Source of the DNA: Ignavibacteriota bacterium
GTDB lineage: Bacteria > Bacteroidota > Ignavibacteria > Tepidaquicellales > Tepidaquicellaceae
Assembly (NCBI GenBank): GCA_026390735.1
Contig: JAPLFJ010000027.1
Location: 1-46,906 of the forward strand
Reading direction: 5' to 3'
Length of the DNA: 46,906 nucleotides
Below, piece by piece: positions 41,028 to 46,906 of the stretch. The notes beneath the pieces were generated by a model. That model was not told the origin of the DNA, searched no databases, and was given only the letters and a program-made list of their open reading frames with translations. The stretch's first letter is position 1; each line of letters starts with the position of its first letter. Both the position numbers and the translations under genes were made by a program.

Positions 41028-43106
41028 ATGGATAGAATTGCTCGGCATCCTGTCTTGAATACCAATCAGGAAAGAAAATCAGTTAACTTTTATTTCAACG
41101 GAGAATCAGTTCAGGGCTTCGAGAACGAACCGGTTTCATCTGCTCTTATCGCAAACGGTGTAAAAGAATTTTCAATTCACCATATCGGAGATGCACCTCA
41201 GGGTATTTTCTGCGCAAACGGACAATGCTCACACTGTACTCTCGTGATTAACGGAAAACCCCTTAAATCCTGTATCACCACGCTTAAGGAAGGTATGGAG
41301 GTCAGAACACTCGTTCACCTTCCCGAACTTCCCGAAGATGACCGAAACGTAGAACACTTCGAGGTTAAAAACCTGAAATGTGATGTACTCGTTATCGGTG
41401 CAGGCCCTTCAGGACTGACAGCGGCTATCGAACTCGCTAAACTTAATTTCGATATTATTCTTATAGACGATAAAGATAAACTCGGCGGTAAACTTCTGCT
41501 CCAGACTCATAAGTTCTTCGGCTCTATCGAAGATTGCTATGCAGGTAAAAGAGGTATCGAAATTGCCGATCTTCTTGAAAAGGAAATCAGAAGCTACAAA
41601 AACGTAAAGATTTATACTAACACTTCAGTAGTGGCATTATACAAGGATAAGAAAGCAGGTCTTTTCATTGACTATAAAAACTATGCTCTTGTCGGTTTCG
41701 ACGGTCTTGTTATTTCTTCTGGTGCCCGCGAAAAGAATCTCGTCTTCCCCGGTAATGACATTCCGGGAGTCTATGGCGCAGGAGCTTTTCAGACACTCGT
41801 TAATCGTGATCTGGTAAAATCTTCTAACCGTATTTTTATCATAGGAAGCGGAAACGTAGGACTCATAGCGGCTTACCACGCATTACAGGCAGGTATCACA
41901 GTCGTCGGTATTGCTGATATTCTTGATAACGTATCGGGCTATAAAGTCCACTCCGATAAAATCAAAAGAATGGGTGTACCTGTATATTTAAAACATACTG
42001 TTCTTACTGCCGAAGGAAACGGACAGGTGGAAAGAATTACTATCGCTGAAGTTGATGAAAAATTCAATCCTCTTCTCGAAAAAGCTAAAACCTTCGAAGT
42101 AGATACTTTGCTCATAGCAGTTGGCTTAAGTTCTATAGATGAATTTTATAACACTGCTCTCAAGTTCGGATACAAAGCAGTAAAGTCAGGCGATGCCGAT
42201 GAAATCGCAGAAGCGTCATCAGCAATGTTCGGAGGCAGAATCTCAGGTCTTCAACTCGCAAAAATGCTTGGCAAAGATGTAGCAGTTGATGAAAGCTGGT
42301 TTAAAAAAGCAGAGGTCTTAAAATCACGTCCGGGTAAAACTCATTCAGAACCTGTTACCGAACTGAATGAAAACTATACTCCGATTATGCACTGCTATCA
42401 GGAAATCCCCTGTAACCCCTGCATTTCAGTGTGCCCGTCAGGTGCAATTAAATTAAACGATGCTCTCGGCAGCATAATGGATTTACCTCTCTACACAGGT
42501 GAAGACTGTACCCGCTGCGGTCAGTGTATTGCAGTATGCCCGGGGCTTGCTATCTCAGTTGCAAAGAAACTCTACGGCGAATGGGCTGAAGTTGTTCTTC
42601 CTCACGAATTCATACCAGCATTCCACGAAAATGAATTTGTATCGCTGACCGATACCGATGGTAACTACCTTGAAAAAGGTGAAGTAATGAAAATTCAGTT
42701 TAATAAAAAGTATAAAACTCATTTAATAACTTTCAAAGTTTCTCTCGGGAATGCTATTAAGATTGCAGGTATAAGAGTTCAGGATGAAGATAAAATCAAG
42801 CCTTTACCGAAACCTGTCTTTAATTATATTCCGGACAACGCAGTTCTATGCAGATGTGAAAGAGTATCCGTCGGGGAAATCATAAAATTTATAAAAGATA
42901 ATGATATTAAAGATGCCAATCAGTTAAAGCAGATTCGTGTCGGTATGGGAGCATGCGGCTCACGTACCTGCTCTATTCTCTTACCAGGAATTTTCTCGGC
43001 TGCCGGTGTTAACTGGTTCGAAGTTGCAGAAAATACCAAGCGTCCGCTTAGTGTCGAAATTCCGATGGGTGCAATCATTAATGAAGATAGTGAGGAGTCA
43101 GTATGA
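41028..43106 (+). CDS. Multidomain FAD/iron-sulfur amino-acid dehydrogenase alpha subunit (HcnA-HcnB/OoxA-like fusion)
   Basis: 692 aa. Residues 1-110: a [2Fe-2S] domain with C62, C67, C70 and C82 (FCANGQCSHC). Residues 118-420: a two-dinucleotide-binding flavoprotein domain, GAGPSG at 124-129 and GSGNVG at 273-278. Residues 456-510: an 8-Cys ferredoxin-type insert (CNPCISVCP, CTRCGQCIAVCP). Residues 605-655: a BFD-like [2Fe-2S] domain with C608, C610, C643 and C648. This is the layout of dye-linked proline, hydroxyproline, sarcosine, opine or glycine dehydrogenase alpha subunits, fused with ferredoxin domains. The stop overlaps the beta-subunit start. Substrate uncertain. Confidence 0.88.
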   Translation: MDRIARHPVLNTNQERKSVNFYFNGESVQGFENEPVSSALIANGVKEFSIHHIGDAPQGIFCANGQCSHCTLVINGKPLKSCITTLKEGMEVRTLVHLPELPEDDRNVEHFEVKNLKCDVLVIGAGPSGLTAAIELAKLNFDIILIDDKDKLGGKLLLQTHKFFGSIEDCYAGKRGIEIADLLEKEIRSYKNVKIYTNTSVVALYKDKKAGLFIDYKNYALVGFDGLVISSGAREKNLVFPGNDIPGVYGAGAFQTLVNRDLVKSSNRIFIIGSGNVGLIAAYHALQAGITVVGIADILDNVSGYKVHSDKIKRMGVPVYLKHTVLTAEGNGQVERITIAEVDEKFNPLLEKAKTFEVDTLLIAVGLSSIDEFYNTALKFGYKAVKSGDADEIAEASSAMFGGRISGLQLAKMLGKDVAVDESWFKKAEVLKSRPGKTHSEPVTELNENYTPIMHCYQEIPCNPCISVCPSGAIKLNDALGSIMDLPLYTGEDCTRCGQCIAVCPGLAISVAKKLYGEWAEVVLPHEFIPAFHENEFVSLTDTDGNYLEKGEVMKIQFNKKYKTHLITFKVSLGNAIKIAGIRVQDEDKIKPLPKPVFNYIPDNAVLCRCERVSVGEIIKFIKDNDIKDANQLKQIRVGMGACGSRTCSILLPGIFSAAGVNWFEVAENTKRPLSVEIPMGAIINEDSEESV

Positions 43107-44251
43107 GAAAGTTTGATGTATTAATTATCGGTGCAGGAAGCATTGGTGTTCCGGCTGCATACTATCTTGCTAAAAAAGGTTTAAGTGTCGGCGTCATAGA
43201 GAAACTTCCTTCAGAAGGAAGAGGTCAAAACCGCGCTGCCATTGGCGGAATCAGGGCTACACACTCCGACCCTGCAAAGATTAAAATCTGCCAGCTTACT
43301 ATCGGATTGATGAACAGTTTTGAGAAAGAACATGACATAGATATCGACTGGATTTCAGGCGGTTACCTTTTTCCTGTTTATGATGAAGTTCTCGAAAACA
43401 AACTTAAAAAGTTACTCGTTACACAAAAGAAGTTTAACCTTAACATAGACTGGATTGATGCCGGTAAAGTAAAAGAACTCGTTCCGGGAATTAATCCTGA
43501 GAACTTAAGAGGCGGCACATTTTCTCCCGAAGACGGGTCTGCTTCTCCGCTTAAAATGACTGGTGCATATTTAAAACTCGCTAAAGAACAAAAAGCAGAG
43601 TTCTTCTTCAACGAAGAAGTTAAAGGTTTTAGAATTGAAAACAATAAAATCATAGAAGTAGAAACAAACAAAGACAAATACTCTGCCGATATAATTATAA
43701 ATGCAGCAGGCGGCGACGCAAAAGAAATCGGCTTGCTTTCCAACCTTGATATTCCTGTTAATCCCGACTGCCACGAAGCAGGTATTACCGAACCCGTAAA
43801 ACCTTTCTTCAAACCTATGGTTGTTGATATACGTTCGGATGAAAACTCTGCCAATTATTATTTCTACCAGAACAAGGAAGGACAGGTTGTATTCTGCATT
43901 ACTCCTAAACCCTCTATACTTGGAAAAGATACTGACAACACATCAGTATTCCTGCCGCTTGTAGTTAAAAGAATACTGAATCTGTATCCACGTTTACGGA
44001 ACCTCCGTATTCGCAGGACCTGGCGCGGCTTATACCCAATGACTCCAGACGGTTTCCCAATCGTTGGATGGACTAAAGAAGTGTCAAATATGTTCCTCGC
44101 AGTCGGTATGTGCGGACAGGGATTTATGCTCGGCCCAGGTCTCGGACAAATCATCTCCGAAATCATAGTTGACAAATCCGACAAATATAATTTCATTCTC
44201 GATCAGTTAACTCTATACCGTGAGTTCGCAGGAATCGAGTTATTGAAGTAA
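43103..44251 (+). CDS. FAD-dependent amino-acid oxidoreductase (DAO family) beta subunit
   Basis: 382 aa. The N-terminus DVLIIGAGSIGVPAAYYLAKKG is the FAD-binding loop, the GGIRATHSDPAKI motif follows, and the C-terminal GLYPMTPDGFPIVGW and GMCGQGFMLGPGLGQI motifs complete the D-amino-acid-oxidase/sarcosine-oxidase-beta fold. Its ATG overlaps the alpha-subunit stop by four bases. Such pairs oxidise the C-N bond of an imino- or amino acid and pass electrons through the alpha subunit's FAD and iron-sulfur clusters. Proline, D-hydroxyproline, sarcosine or glycine are the likely substrates. Confidence 0.9.
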   Translation: MRKFDVLIIGAGSIGVPAAYYLAKKGLSVGVIEKLPSEGRGQNRAAIGGIRATHSDPAKIKICQLTIGLMNSFEKEHDIDIDWISGGYLFPVYDEVLENKLKKLLVTQKKFNLNIDWIDAGKVKELVPGINPENLRGGTFSPEDGSASPLKMTGAYLKLAKEQKAEFFFNEEVKGFRIENNKIIEVETNKDKYSADIIINAAGGDAKEIGLLSNLDIPVNPDCHEAGITEPVKPFFKPMVVDIRSDENSANYYFYQNKEGQVVFCITPKPSILGKDTDNTSVFLPLVVKRILNLYPRLRNLRIRRTWRGLYPMTPDGFPIVGWTKEVSNMFLAVGMCGQGFMLGPGLGQIISEIIVDKSDKYNFILDQLTLYREFAGIELLK

Positions 44252-44266
44252 AAGAAAAGTTTGAAA

Positions 44267-44377
44267 GTCCCTGAGGGACGACATCTCAATAGCTAATAAT
44301 ACTAAATATTGCAAAGTCCCGGAGGGACGACATATAAATAGCAAATATTATCTACAACAATCAAGTCCCGTAGGGAC
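44267..44377. repeat. REP-element array, left side of the RAYT gene (three units)
   Basis: Palindromes GTCCC-NNN-GGGAC at 44267-44279, 44316-44328 and 44365-44377 occur with an exact 49-base period. Each is followed by ACGACA-TCAATA-like sequence. They are on the opposite orientation to the right-hand array. Together with the RAYT gene they form a typical REP/BIME locus. Confidence 0.88.
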
Positions 44378-44417
44378 GACAAATCAATATCTTGATATAA
44401 TTATTAATAGCAAAAGA

Positions 44418-44879
44418 TTACACAGGCTCCTTAAATATATACGCTTCTTTGTAATCTATTTCATATAGCTTAAGAAACTTCCTATATTCATCTAGAAACG
44501 ATGTTTTCTTGTGATGCTCCTTTTGGTTCTCAATATATTTCACTACAGCTGGTATTTGTGATTTCGAATATGTAAAACCCCCAAATCCTTCCTGCCATTC
44601 AAACCTACCCAACGTAAATTTACTTTCATTAATCCATTTTGACGTATTACTTTTAATAATTTGCATTAATTCACTTAAAGATTGGTTTGGAGTCATACTA
44701 ATTAAAGAATGTAAGTGATCATTCGTACCATTTATTGCAAACAATCTATGCCCGTTCTTTTTAACTATACCGGTTATGTATTTATATAATTCGATTTCCC
44801 AATCCATACCAATTAATGAATGCTTTCGCTTTGGCGCAAAAACTGCTTGTACATATAACTGGGTATATGTGTTGGCCAT
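44418..44879 (-). CDS. REP-associated tyrosine transposase (IS200-type Y1 HUH, RAYT)
   Basis: 153 aa. The HUH histidine motif is HLH at 55-57 (TNDHLHSLIS), and the single catalytic tyrosine candidate is Y115 with Q119 (VVKYIENQ), the Y1 layout of the TnpA/RAYT superfamily. There is no accessory TnpB. It is flanked by inverted-orientation REP arrays instead of IS200 ends, the arrangement of RAYTs thought to spread or maintain REP elements. It appears intact. Confidence 0.92.
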   Translation of the reverse strand: MANTYTQLYVQAVFAPKRKHSLIGMDWEIELYKYITGIVKKNGHRLFAINGTNDHLHSLISMTPNQSLSELMQIIKSNTSKWINESKFTLGRFEWQEGFGGFTYSKSQIPAVVKYIENQKEHHKKTSFLDEYRKFLKLYEIDYKEAYIFKEPV

Positions 44880-44923
44880 AATATTTTAATAATTTTTATG
44901 TTAATAAATATTATTAATATGTC

Positions 44924-45129
44924 GTCCCTACGGGACTAAGAAAAATATCATTCCTTCGCTATTGATATACCATCCCTACGGGACTTAGAGAAATATCATT
45001 CCCTCGCTATTGATATGCCGTCCCTACGGGACTTAGAGAAATATCATTACCTCGCTATTGATATACCGTCCCTACGGGACTTAAAGAAACTGCTTTCCTA
45101 TTGCAATTGTTACGTTGTCCCTACGGGAC
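44924..45129. repeat. REP-element array, right side of the RAYT gene (five units)
   Basis: Palindromes at 44924-44936, 44972-44984 (first base changed), 45020-45032, 45068-45080 and 45117-45129 have a period of 48 to 49 bases. The intervening segments are related to each other (TTAGAGAAATATCATT-CTCGCTATTGATAT), so this is not a CRISPR. Units are inverted relative to those on the left. Confidence 0.92.
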
Positions 45130-45156
45130 TTACCAATAATTATCTCTCTATCCCCT

Positions 45157-46323
45157 TCACCCGTTTATCAACTCTATCGCCTTCTCCATCACATCCGTCT
45201 CCGTCAGCAGACTTATCACTGCAAACCCCTCTGTAAAGAAATCATAATAATAACCGGGATGTATAAGCACATTTTTCTTATCAAGAAGCTTCAGCACAAA
45301 TTCATCCTCAGGAACGAGTAAATTTTCAAAATTCAATATTGCATTCCAGCCGCCTTCACAGTTCAACACCTTAATATCAGGGTTCAGAAGAAATTCCTTC
45401 TTCAGCAGATTGTAATTTTTATTTATCCTTCCTGATATTTCTTCCTGTATTTTTTCACGCGTCTCAAACAATCTTTTCACTGCAAACTGTACAGGTGTGG
45501 CCACTGATAAATACGTATCGGCAATGACTTCAAGCCTTTGTACAGCTTCATCTTTTAATTTTTTCCCGCCCTGAATCAATATCCAGCCAAACTTCATCTG
45601 CGGCAATGCAAGCATCTTCGAAAAACCATTCAGCACAAACGTCAGATTGCTGTTAAATCCCGCGACTGTCTTCAATGCCTTATCTCCTGCTTCTATTTCA
45701 TAATCAGAAAACACTTCATCAACAATCAGCGCTAAATTATATTTCTCCGATAAATTGTTGAAAGCCTCATAATCACTTTCCCTGATGTATGAACCTGTGG
45801 GGTTATTCGGATTGATTATCACTATAGCTTTTGTCTTCGGACTTATCTTCTTCTCGAGCAGTGCAAAGTCAGGTACCCATCCGTCCCTGTAATCATAAAC
45901 CAGCGGATAGTAAACTACATTACCCAGGTCGAGTCTTGTAAGATACTCGAAAAGCGGATAACTCGGCTGCGGCATTAACACTTCATCCTCTGCGTCGAGC
46001 AGTAACTTGAATAAATATGAATATGCTTCACTCGTACTCGGTACAAGGAATAAATCGTCAGCGGATACTGTTTTACCAACCCCTGAATAGTACTTAGCAA
46101 CTTCTTCCCTTGCAGATATCATTCCCTTCGGGTCGGGCTCGTACACCAGCGACCTGTCATCTATAAAATGCTTTAGAATATGTTTCGCATCATACTTGAA
46201 ATTCAACTTCGTCGGATTCGATGATGTTAAATCCAGTATCCTTTCTCCGTGCTTCGTCTTTAAATTGTACAGCAAAGAAAGTTCATTTGCCTCATACTCA
46301 ATATTTAGTCTCTTTGAGAACAT
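45157..46323 (-). CDS. Class I/II PLP-dependent aminotransferase
   Basis: 388 aa, family length. Cytoplasmic. SSNPTKLNF and the PQPSYPLFEYL segment open the fold. NPNNPTGSY at 171-179 and DEVFSDYE at 202-209 hold the PLP-phosphate and pyridine contacts, and the Schiff-base lysine is K236 in NGFSKMLALPQMKFGW. The specific substrate is not evident; aspartate/tyrosine/aromatic-type transfer is possible. Its 3' end is only 28 bases from the REP array. Confidence 0.93.
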   Translation of the reverse strand: MFSKRLNIEYEANELSLLYNLKTKHGERILDLTSSNPTKLNFKYDAKHILKHFIDDRSLVYEPDPKGMISAREEVAKYYSGVGKTVSADDLFLVPSTSEAYSYLFKLLLDAEDEVLMPQPSYPLFEYLTRLDLGNVVYYPLVYDYRDGWVPDFALLEKKISPKTKAIVIINPNNPTGSYIRESDYEAFNNLSEKYNLALIVDEVFSDYEIEAGDKALKTVAGFNSNLTFVLNGFSKMLALPQMKFGWILIQGGKKLKDEAVQRLEVIADTYLSVATPVQFAVKRLFETREKIQEEISGRINKNYNLLKKEFLLNPDIKVLNCEGGWNAILNFENLLVPEDEFVLKLLDKKNVLIHPGYYYDFFTEGFAVISLLTETDVMEKAIELING

Positions 46324-46692: not shown

Positions 46693-46906
46693 CTATTTCA
46701 GCATCACCATCTTAATAATATGCTTGTAACTTCCTGCTTCTATCTTCGCGAAGTACATTCCACTGGCATAATTTGCTCCGTTGAAAGTTGCTTCGTACCT
46801 GCCTGCCTGCATATTATCGTTCACTAAGGTTTCCACTTCTTTTCCAGTTACATCATAAACTGTGAGTTTTACGAATGAGTTATTCGCAATGTCATACTTT
46901 ATAGAT
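46693..46906 (-). CDS. T9SS type A sorting domain protein, C-terminal part (cut by window edge)
   Basis: The last 70 codons of a larger gene. Translated, it reads IKYDIANNSFVKLTVYDVTG, then KEVETLVND, then AGRYEATFNGANYASGMYFA, ending KMVMLK, with TAG at 46693-46695. This is the second half of a type A sorting domain, homologous to the C-termini of the four cargo genes between 22973 and 34052, so the unseen part is probably a secreted protein. The start lies beyond the window. Confidence 0.9.
   Translation of the reverse strand, partial: SIKYDIANNSFVKLTVYDVTGKEVETLVNDNMQAGRYEATFNGANYASGMYFAKIEAGSYKHIIKMVMLK

Follow-up and report, generated by a model that had tools for sequence, protein, structure and literature searches.

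The window, as we call the whole stretch of 46,906 nucleotides analysed here, contains a gene for a transposase of the TnpA-Y1 (HUH) type. The gene is bracketed by two arrays of short hairpins and lies between two convergent genes, neither of which is tnpB (Table 1). The initial annotation had read this locus as a RAYT gene between REP arrays of even period, with three units on the left and five on the right. Number and spacing stand: the units follow one another at 49 and 49 bp on the left and at 48, 48, 48 and 49 bp on the right, and the two arrays are indeed mutually inverted, both facing away from the gene. The statement that all hairpins read GTCCC-NNN-GGGAC needs one correction, as seven of the eight match GTCCCNNNGGGAC exactly and the one at 44972 is ATCCCTACGGGAC. 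The described similarity of the linkers applies to the right-array units, the left-array linkers being less alike. Each array begins with a unit that lacks the CTA[CT] box and continues with boxed units, except for the last unit on the right. At the end of the window lies an open-ended ORF (46693-46905), which presumably resembles a type IX secretion C-terminal sorting domain.

Table 1. Positions of the transposase gene, its flanking hairpins and the neighbouring genes in the window.
Feature	Positions	Strand	Remarks
TnpA-Y1 (HUH) gene	44418..44879	-	153 aa
Left array, gene-proximal hairpin	44365..44377	-	CTA[CT] box absent ahead of hairpin (GATATTGATTTGTC)
Left array, hairpin 2	44316..44328	-	GCTATTT ahead of hairpin
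Left array, hairpin 3	44267..44279	-	GCTATTG ahead of hairpin
Right array, gene-proximal hairpin	44924..44936	+	CTA[CT] box absent (ATTATTAATATGTC)
Right array, hairpin 2	44972..44984	+	ATCCC...GGGAC, outer pair broken; GCTATTG box from 44958
Right array, hairpin 3	45020..45032	+	GCTATTG box from 45006
Right array, hairpin 4	45068..45080	+	GCTATTG box from 45054
Right array, last hairpin	45117..45129	+	box degenerate: GCAATTG
Intergenic interval containing the entire locus	44252..45156	.	neighbours convergent
Oxidoreductase gene (neighbour)	43103-44251	+	
Aminotransferase gene (neighbour)	45157-46323	-	

The transposase gene is intact, as had been proposed: its ORF has no internal stop, and the protein matches Pfam PF01797 (Y1_Tnp) at 1.4e-25. 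The histidines of the HUH motif are H55 and H57 (codons 44715-44717 and 44709-44711), the catalytic tyrosine is Y115 (codon 44535-44537), and Q119 and H122/H123 are further motif residues. H55, H57, W95, Q96, Y115, Q119 and H123 are invariant across 67 aligned sequences. The signature YxxxQxxHH reads YIENQKEHH in the window protein and is present in its strict form in 77 of 80 relatives, and members of this branch are annotated as IS200/IS605 transposases wherever annotation was seen. The protein passes the NCBIfam model transpos_IS200 (62.5 bits, cut-off 55). Its AlphaFold2 model (pLDDT 94.4) most closely resembles IS608 TnpA (Z 12.8 over 107 residues), with ISDra2 at 12.5; 15 IS200-type transposase entries span Z 12.8-12.1, RAYT 4er8 follows at 10.4, and no further chain exceeds 7.5. 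In Table 1 of Quentin et al. (2018, PMC6006769), TnpA-Y1 subclass 1.2 is listed with YxxxQxxHH, WQ and DH[IV]H, and with 'no' in the REP column. Judged by its motifs, the window protein would fit this subclass, its HuH motif reading DHLH against the DH[IV]H listed there and WQ being invariant in the 67 sequences.

The hairpins are not confined to the locus. In the 4.02-Mb genome GTCCCNNNGGGAC has 20 matches, compared to 2 for the reversed pattern, and 7 of the 20 lie inside the 863-bp locus. A covariance model built from 23 units recovered 37 (E <= 0.1), 14 of them newly found, with 8 at the locus and 29 at 16 other sites. The genome-wide search that the initial annotation had proposed as a check thus finds the repeats elsewhere as well. 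Same-strand neighbours lie 48-50 nt apart at 10 of the 16 dispersed sites, 12 of the 16 lie clear of any stop-free frame of 100 codons, and some dispersed units have other stems (GTTCC, GCTCC, GCACC). Five dispersed pairs have a core of ~85 nt in common, and longer flanks are shared by three of the 16 sites (L011, L013, L014); a larger repeat sought round the dispersed pairs in this genome was found at one site only. TGTC or TRCC precedes the stem in most units, and a GT[AG]G tag is present in 0 of 23. With 37 units, the repeats are dispersed, but far fewer than the hundreds that the available text of PMC8266576 reports for REPs. Other matches to tnpA in the same genome are 56-64% identical and contain stops, and there is no near-identical second copy. 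Decayed transposase relatives, with stops or frame breaks, lie at C50:142940-143398, C28:83127-83578 and C55:4016-4249 (L019-L021).

In genomes of the same family the insert is absent. The oxidoreductase and aminotransferase genes are adjacent in G003, G004 and G009, with neither tnpA nor such hairpins between them, and partial matches indicate the same for G002. In G008 the two genes are >1 kb apart and tnpA is absent, and no oxidoreductase was seen in the stretch from G007. The vacant site in G003, G004 and G009 implies that the locus was gained in the present lineage or lost in those; the exact ends of the insert are unreadable because the spacers have diverged.

To follow the association across relatives, we scanned genome contigs, which yielded 483 relatives, and kept the best 80; nearly all are from Bacteroidota or Ignavibacteria, the exceptions including a Chlorobium MAG and an Opitutales MAG. 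Among these best 80 of 483, TCCC-N3/4-GGGA hairpins number 161 in 89 kb of flanks (<=600 nt) and 7 in 264 kb lying >1 kb away, with 4 near and 3 far for the reversed pattern. A stem-blind scan for what we term type-I hairpins (5-bp perfect stem, CC adjoining the loop, loop of 3-4, >=3 G or C) gave 379 in the 89 kb near the genes (<=600 nt) and 24 in the 264 kb farther away, against 4.4 in shuffles. At least one type-I hairpin lies within 600 nt in 77 of the 80 relatives, at least two in 71, and hairpins on both sides in 43; in each of the three relatives with none (L052, L073, L120) the gene is near a stretch end. As a control, 30 class-2 RAYT loci from the phylum contain 14 type-I hairpins in 101.8 kb (whole loci) and 5 in 36 kb (<=600 nt), and 3 of the 30 have one near the gene.

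The stems vary (GTCCC, GTTCC, ATCCC, GCTCC, GCCCC and others) while pairing is kept. Covariation within the stem is uninformative, since the scan itself demands pairing, but the next pair outward (-1/+1), which the scan does not demand, covaries with a z of 9.7. Covariation between the hairpin foot and the CTA[CT] box, sought as a possible guide/cleavage pair, gave no signal. Within the phylum, the family profile A1 has matches in 106 of 198 sampled genomes (E <= 0.001), the weakest of which are possibly other Y1s, and plasmids yielded three records.

The 377 oriented units (two at stretch ends were dropped) have the consensus T[T/G]CTACC[A/G]ATATTTN-[NNNCC-TAC-GGNNN]-A, and their arrangement is regular. 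Where the nearest hairpin lies <=60 nt from the ORF, it faces outward in 68 of 72 cases, 60 of those 68 without the CTA[CT] box. Same-strand chains with members 42-60 nt apart are exact pairs in 105 of 117 cases, and 115 further units are solitary. The box is absent from the first chain member in 106 of the 117 and present in 98 of 145 later members. Neighbouring units are direct in 150 cases, converging in 20 and diverging in 12, and the stems of the two pair members differ in 63 of the 105 pairs. The usual module of the family is an outward-facing same-strand pair, with a box-free hairpin A by the gene and a CTA[CT]-preceded hairpin B ~50 nt farther away; the window arrays of three and five look like lengthened pairs.

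Changes in the number of units are seen in Flavobacterium, where several species share the gene neighbours and differ in their units. The start-proximal unit of ~47 nt is absent from L106 and L090, which would fit unit excision. A ~145-bp repeat, comprising a pair with its spacer plus the upstream gene's final part, is present in L088, L115 and L100 and absent from L086 and L103; it fits ordinary recombination, as the upstream-gene end is included.

One alternative is that the locus is an ordinary IS200/IS605 insertion sequence with multiplied end hairpins. In IS608 the gene lies between two end hairpins on one strand, and the A-B pairs described above resemble such a left-end and right-end hairpin. 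The transpos_IS200 score, IS608 as the nearest fold and the vacant site in G003, G004 and G009 point the same way. However, the hairpins on the two sides of the window gene are on opposite strands, so that the gene does not lie between a same-strand pair, the genome lacks a near-identical second gene copy, and the neighbours are common to several Flavobacterium species, all of which makes this explanation an unlikely one.

The hairpins could instead be RNA or transcription elements, such as terminators or controls of tnpA expression, and not a substrate of the enzyme. Their proximity to the ORF (<=60 nt on 72 sides) and the T runs that follow the B units of Flavobacterium would be in line with such a role. 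Against it, a terminator scan gave one hit in the region compared to 0.6 in shuffles, no clear excess, the stems are 5-6 bp, the hairpins form same-strand pairs and have a conserved box ahead of them, and copies are dispersed without the gene; we regard a role as RNA or transcription elements as quite improbable. An Rfam search returned only sub-threshold matches to Acido-Lenti-1 and one miR-430 match. The former (L220:110-578; window 44316-44337 and 45005-45081) reach at most 24.9 bits, the gathering threshold being 37. In the Acido-Lenti-1 consensus, CTA comes after a CC...GG hairpin, and what is listed as an 'sRNA' family may in its turn be a DNA hairpin linked to a transposase.

When one stem pattern is counted, most genomes have few copies. 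Such a genome-by-genome count is uninformative, because stems vary from one genome to the next and those counted in G102 travel on a different element. G102 has 29 GTCCC copies, seemingly a case of strong dispersal, but all 17 copies retrieved sit in copies of one element, that at L294 being divergent. This element (L332-L339; also L292-L306, L310 and L311) carries up to four hairpins and occupies at least 17 places. Among eight copies with longer flanks, seven have CTGTCCAAAATAATTTT inverted at both ends (six of ~300 bp and one of 390 bp), and most show, by eye, direct repeats of ~6 bp just outside, in the manner of DDE transposases. When compared with the loci of G102 itself (L189/L307, L308, L309, L223), the element has a notable stretch in common only with the broken L309 (27 nt, 93%, round one hairpin). 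Its appearance is that of a hairpin locus without the gene, taken up by another transposon. In G124, which is outside the 106 genomes matched by profile A1, GTCCCNNNGGGAC has 20 matches with varied loops (control 1).

As the G102 hairpins ride a ~300-bp element with inverted ends, such repeats can be spread by something else. They might then be passengers of other mobile elements throughout, with the link to tnpA reflecting shared insertion sites, and the longer flanks shared by L011, L013 and L014 would agree with this. Yet 77 of 80 diverse relatives have the hairpins, in a fixed orientation to the ORF, which is hard to obtain by random insertion, and we consider a general passenger origin very improbable.

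In a larger set of 176 loci (after removal of three duplicate genes), the presence of a type-I hairpin within 300 nt follows the profile score: 103 of 104 loci at >=190 bits, 14 of 19 at 150-190, 6 of 13 at 140-150 and 2 of 38 at 110-140. Longer hairpins (type II), many with tips reading TTTA, TTCA or similar, occur in 29 of these 38 lowest-scoring loci, at 4.36 per kb compared to 0.26 in shuffles. A hairpin of either type is present at 166 of the 176 loci and in 76 of 393 distant 600-nt blocks, and the broad scan finds none at the other 10 loci. Type II is, however, unspecific, being present at 24 of 30 class-2 RAYT loci. We had considered a 'hairpin-free clade' among relatives of 27-38% identity, and this idea was dropped when the broader scan found longer hairpins there. 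Three intermediate relatives (L209, L210, L217) have 5-bp GG-tipped hairpins mixed with longer ones, possibly a transition in hairpin type. In a tree with 149 rows from the family and 4 RAYTs (rows with a flank <900 nt, <125 aa or stops were dropped; of eight class-2 rows four were kept, the others having been read on the wrong strand), the type-I label needs 9 changes, compared to 26 in shuffles. The four class-2 rows are separate from the 149 others, in a tree whose bootstrap is not settled.

According to the available text of PMC6006769, class-2 TnpA-REP proteins have a YxxxNP motif, and their repeats carry a GT[AG]G tag at the hairpin foot. That the window locus is such a canonical RAYT with its REPs is scarcely credible: a Y1 gene is flanked by inverted palindromic arrays with copies elsewhere and the predicted fold matches RAYT 4er8 (Z 10.4), but the protein fails the NCBIfam model REP_Tyr_transpos (NF047646; 25.4 bits, cut-off 80), it reads YIENQ in place of YxxxNP, the tree separates the class-2 rows from the family, and the hairpins have 5-bp stems in same-strand pairs without a GTAG/GTGG tag. 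By sequence criteria, the window protein is not a class-2 RAYT. The term 'RAYT' in the initial annotation is accordingly apt for a Y1 gene bracketed by palindromic repeats, though not for the protein; the repeats are palindromic and dispersed as REPs are, but untagged, short-stemmed, few and paired on one strand.

We propose a REPtron-like unit whose HUH enzyme belongs to the IS200 branch, by its motifs TnpA-Y1 subclass 1.2, and we hold this to be probable, if well short of assured. It accounts for the family-wide association, the kept pairing, the pair geometry, the catalytic residues, the predicted IS608-like fold, the dispersed copies and the absence of the insert in same-family genomes. 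The folding of the units as DNA is unexceptional (z -1.1 to -2.1), which we counted against this REPtron-like reading. On the same side we placed the G102 element with its inverted ends, the longer flanks shared by three dispersed sites, the low copy number for the one stem pattern, the missing covariation between hairpin foot and CTA[CT] box, the ~145-bp repeat, the 10 of 176 loci with no hairpin and the unspecific nature of type II. By analogy with IS200/IS605 and, from the available text of PMC8266576, TnpA-REP, a dimer of the window enzyme would most likely bind and hold two hairpins exposed on single-stranded DNA. It would cut near the hairpins, using the HUH metal site together with Tyr115, and rejoin the ends. 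Through such excision and insertion the arrays would gain or lose units of ~49 nt, and copies of hairpin pairs would reach other sites, with the gene for the most part keeping its place. The conservation of the CTA[CT] box makes it a candidate cut site, as a guess.

More tentatively, and with somewhat more doubt than confidence, we suggest that the whole YxxxQxxHH branch is a separate REPtron-like lineage, whose substrate would be an asymmetric same-strand hairpin pair, like IS200 ends shrunk to ~80 nt, and in which hairpin type would track the enzyme clade. If true, this would link IS200 elements with REP systems. A common orphan branch of single-strand DNA transposases would gain a candidate substrate of defined geometry that can be tested in vitro. 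An IS200-branch enzyme with REP-like habits and IS-like hairpin pairs would also bear on the origin of REP systems from IS200-like elements.

Compared to known systems, the window locus is closest in protein to subclass 1.2 of PMC6006769, with which it shares YxxxQxxHH, WQ, a length of ~150 aa, low copy number and an occurrence in Bacteroidota. In the available text of that source, subclass 1.2 is reported without REP and generally without end structures, whereas nearly all relatives examined here are flanked by hairpins. This suggests that hairpin partners do exist for a branch of IS200 transposases described as having none. The automatic search described in that text looked for fully paired stems of 7 to 20 with GTAG/GTGG no more than 2 nt away, so that untagged 5-bp stems escaped it. 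Our literature search, mostly of titles and abstracts and with few subscription journals, found no description of these repeats or of hairpins in subclass 1.2; four papers with an 11-base sequence match seem, by their titles, to be unrelated. CGTC-tagged REPs (Di Nocera et al. 2013, PMC3733652) are reported without a transposase; their stems measure 8-9 bp, most have CCA tails, and they occur mainly as head-head dimers. TGTC stands directly ahead of the stem in many window units, but with stems of 5 bp here the link is a lead only. With IS608 and ISDra2 (IS200/IS605) the window protein shares the fold and the YxxxQ motif, and the locus differs from these elements in that no same-strand hairpins enclose the gene, a near-identical second copy is missing and the neighbours are not tnpB. 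From the REPtron, with its class-2 RAYT and GTAG REPs, it differs in the protein branch, the absent GTAG tag, the 5-bp stems, the same-strand pairs and a copy number in the tens, while both have an HUH-Y1 gene bracketed by palindromic repeats, with dispersed copies.
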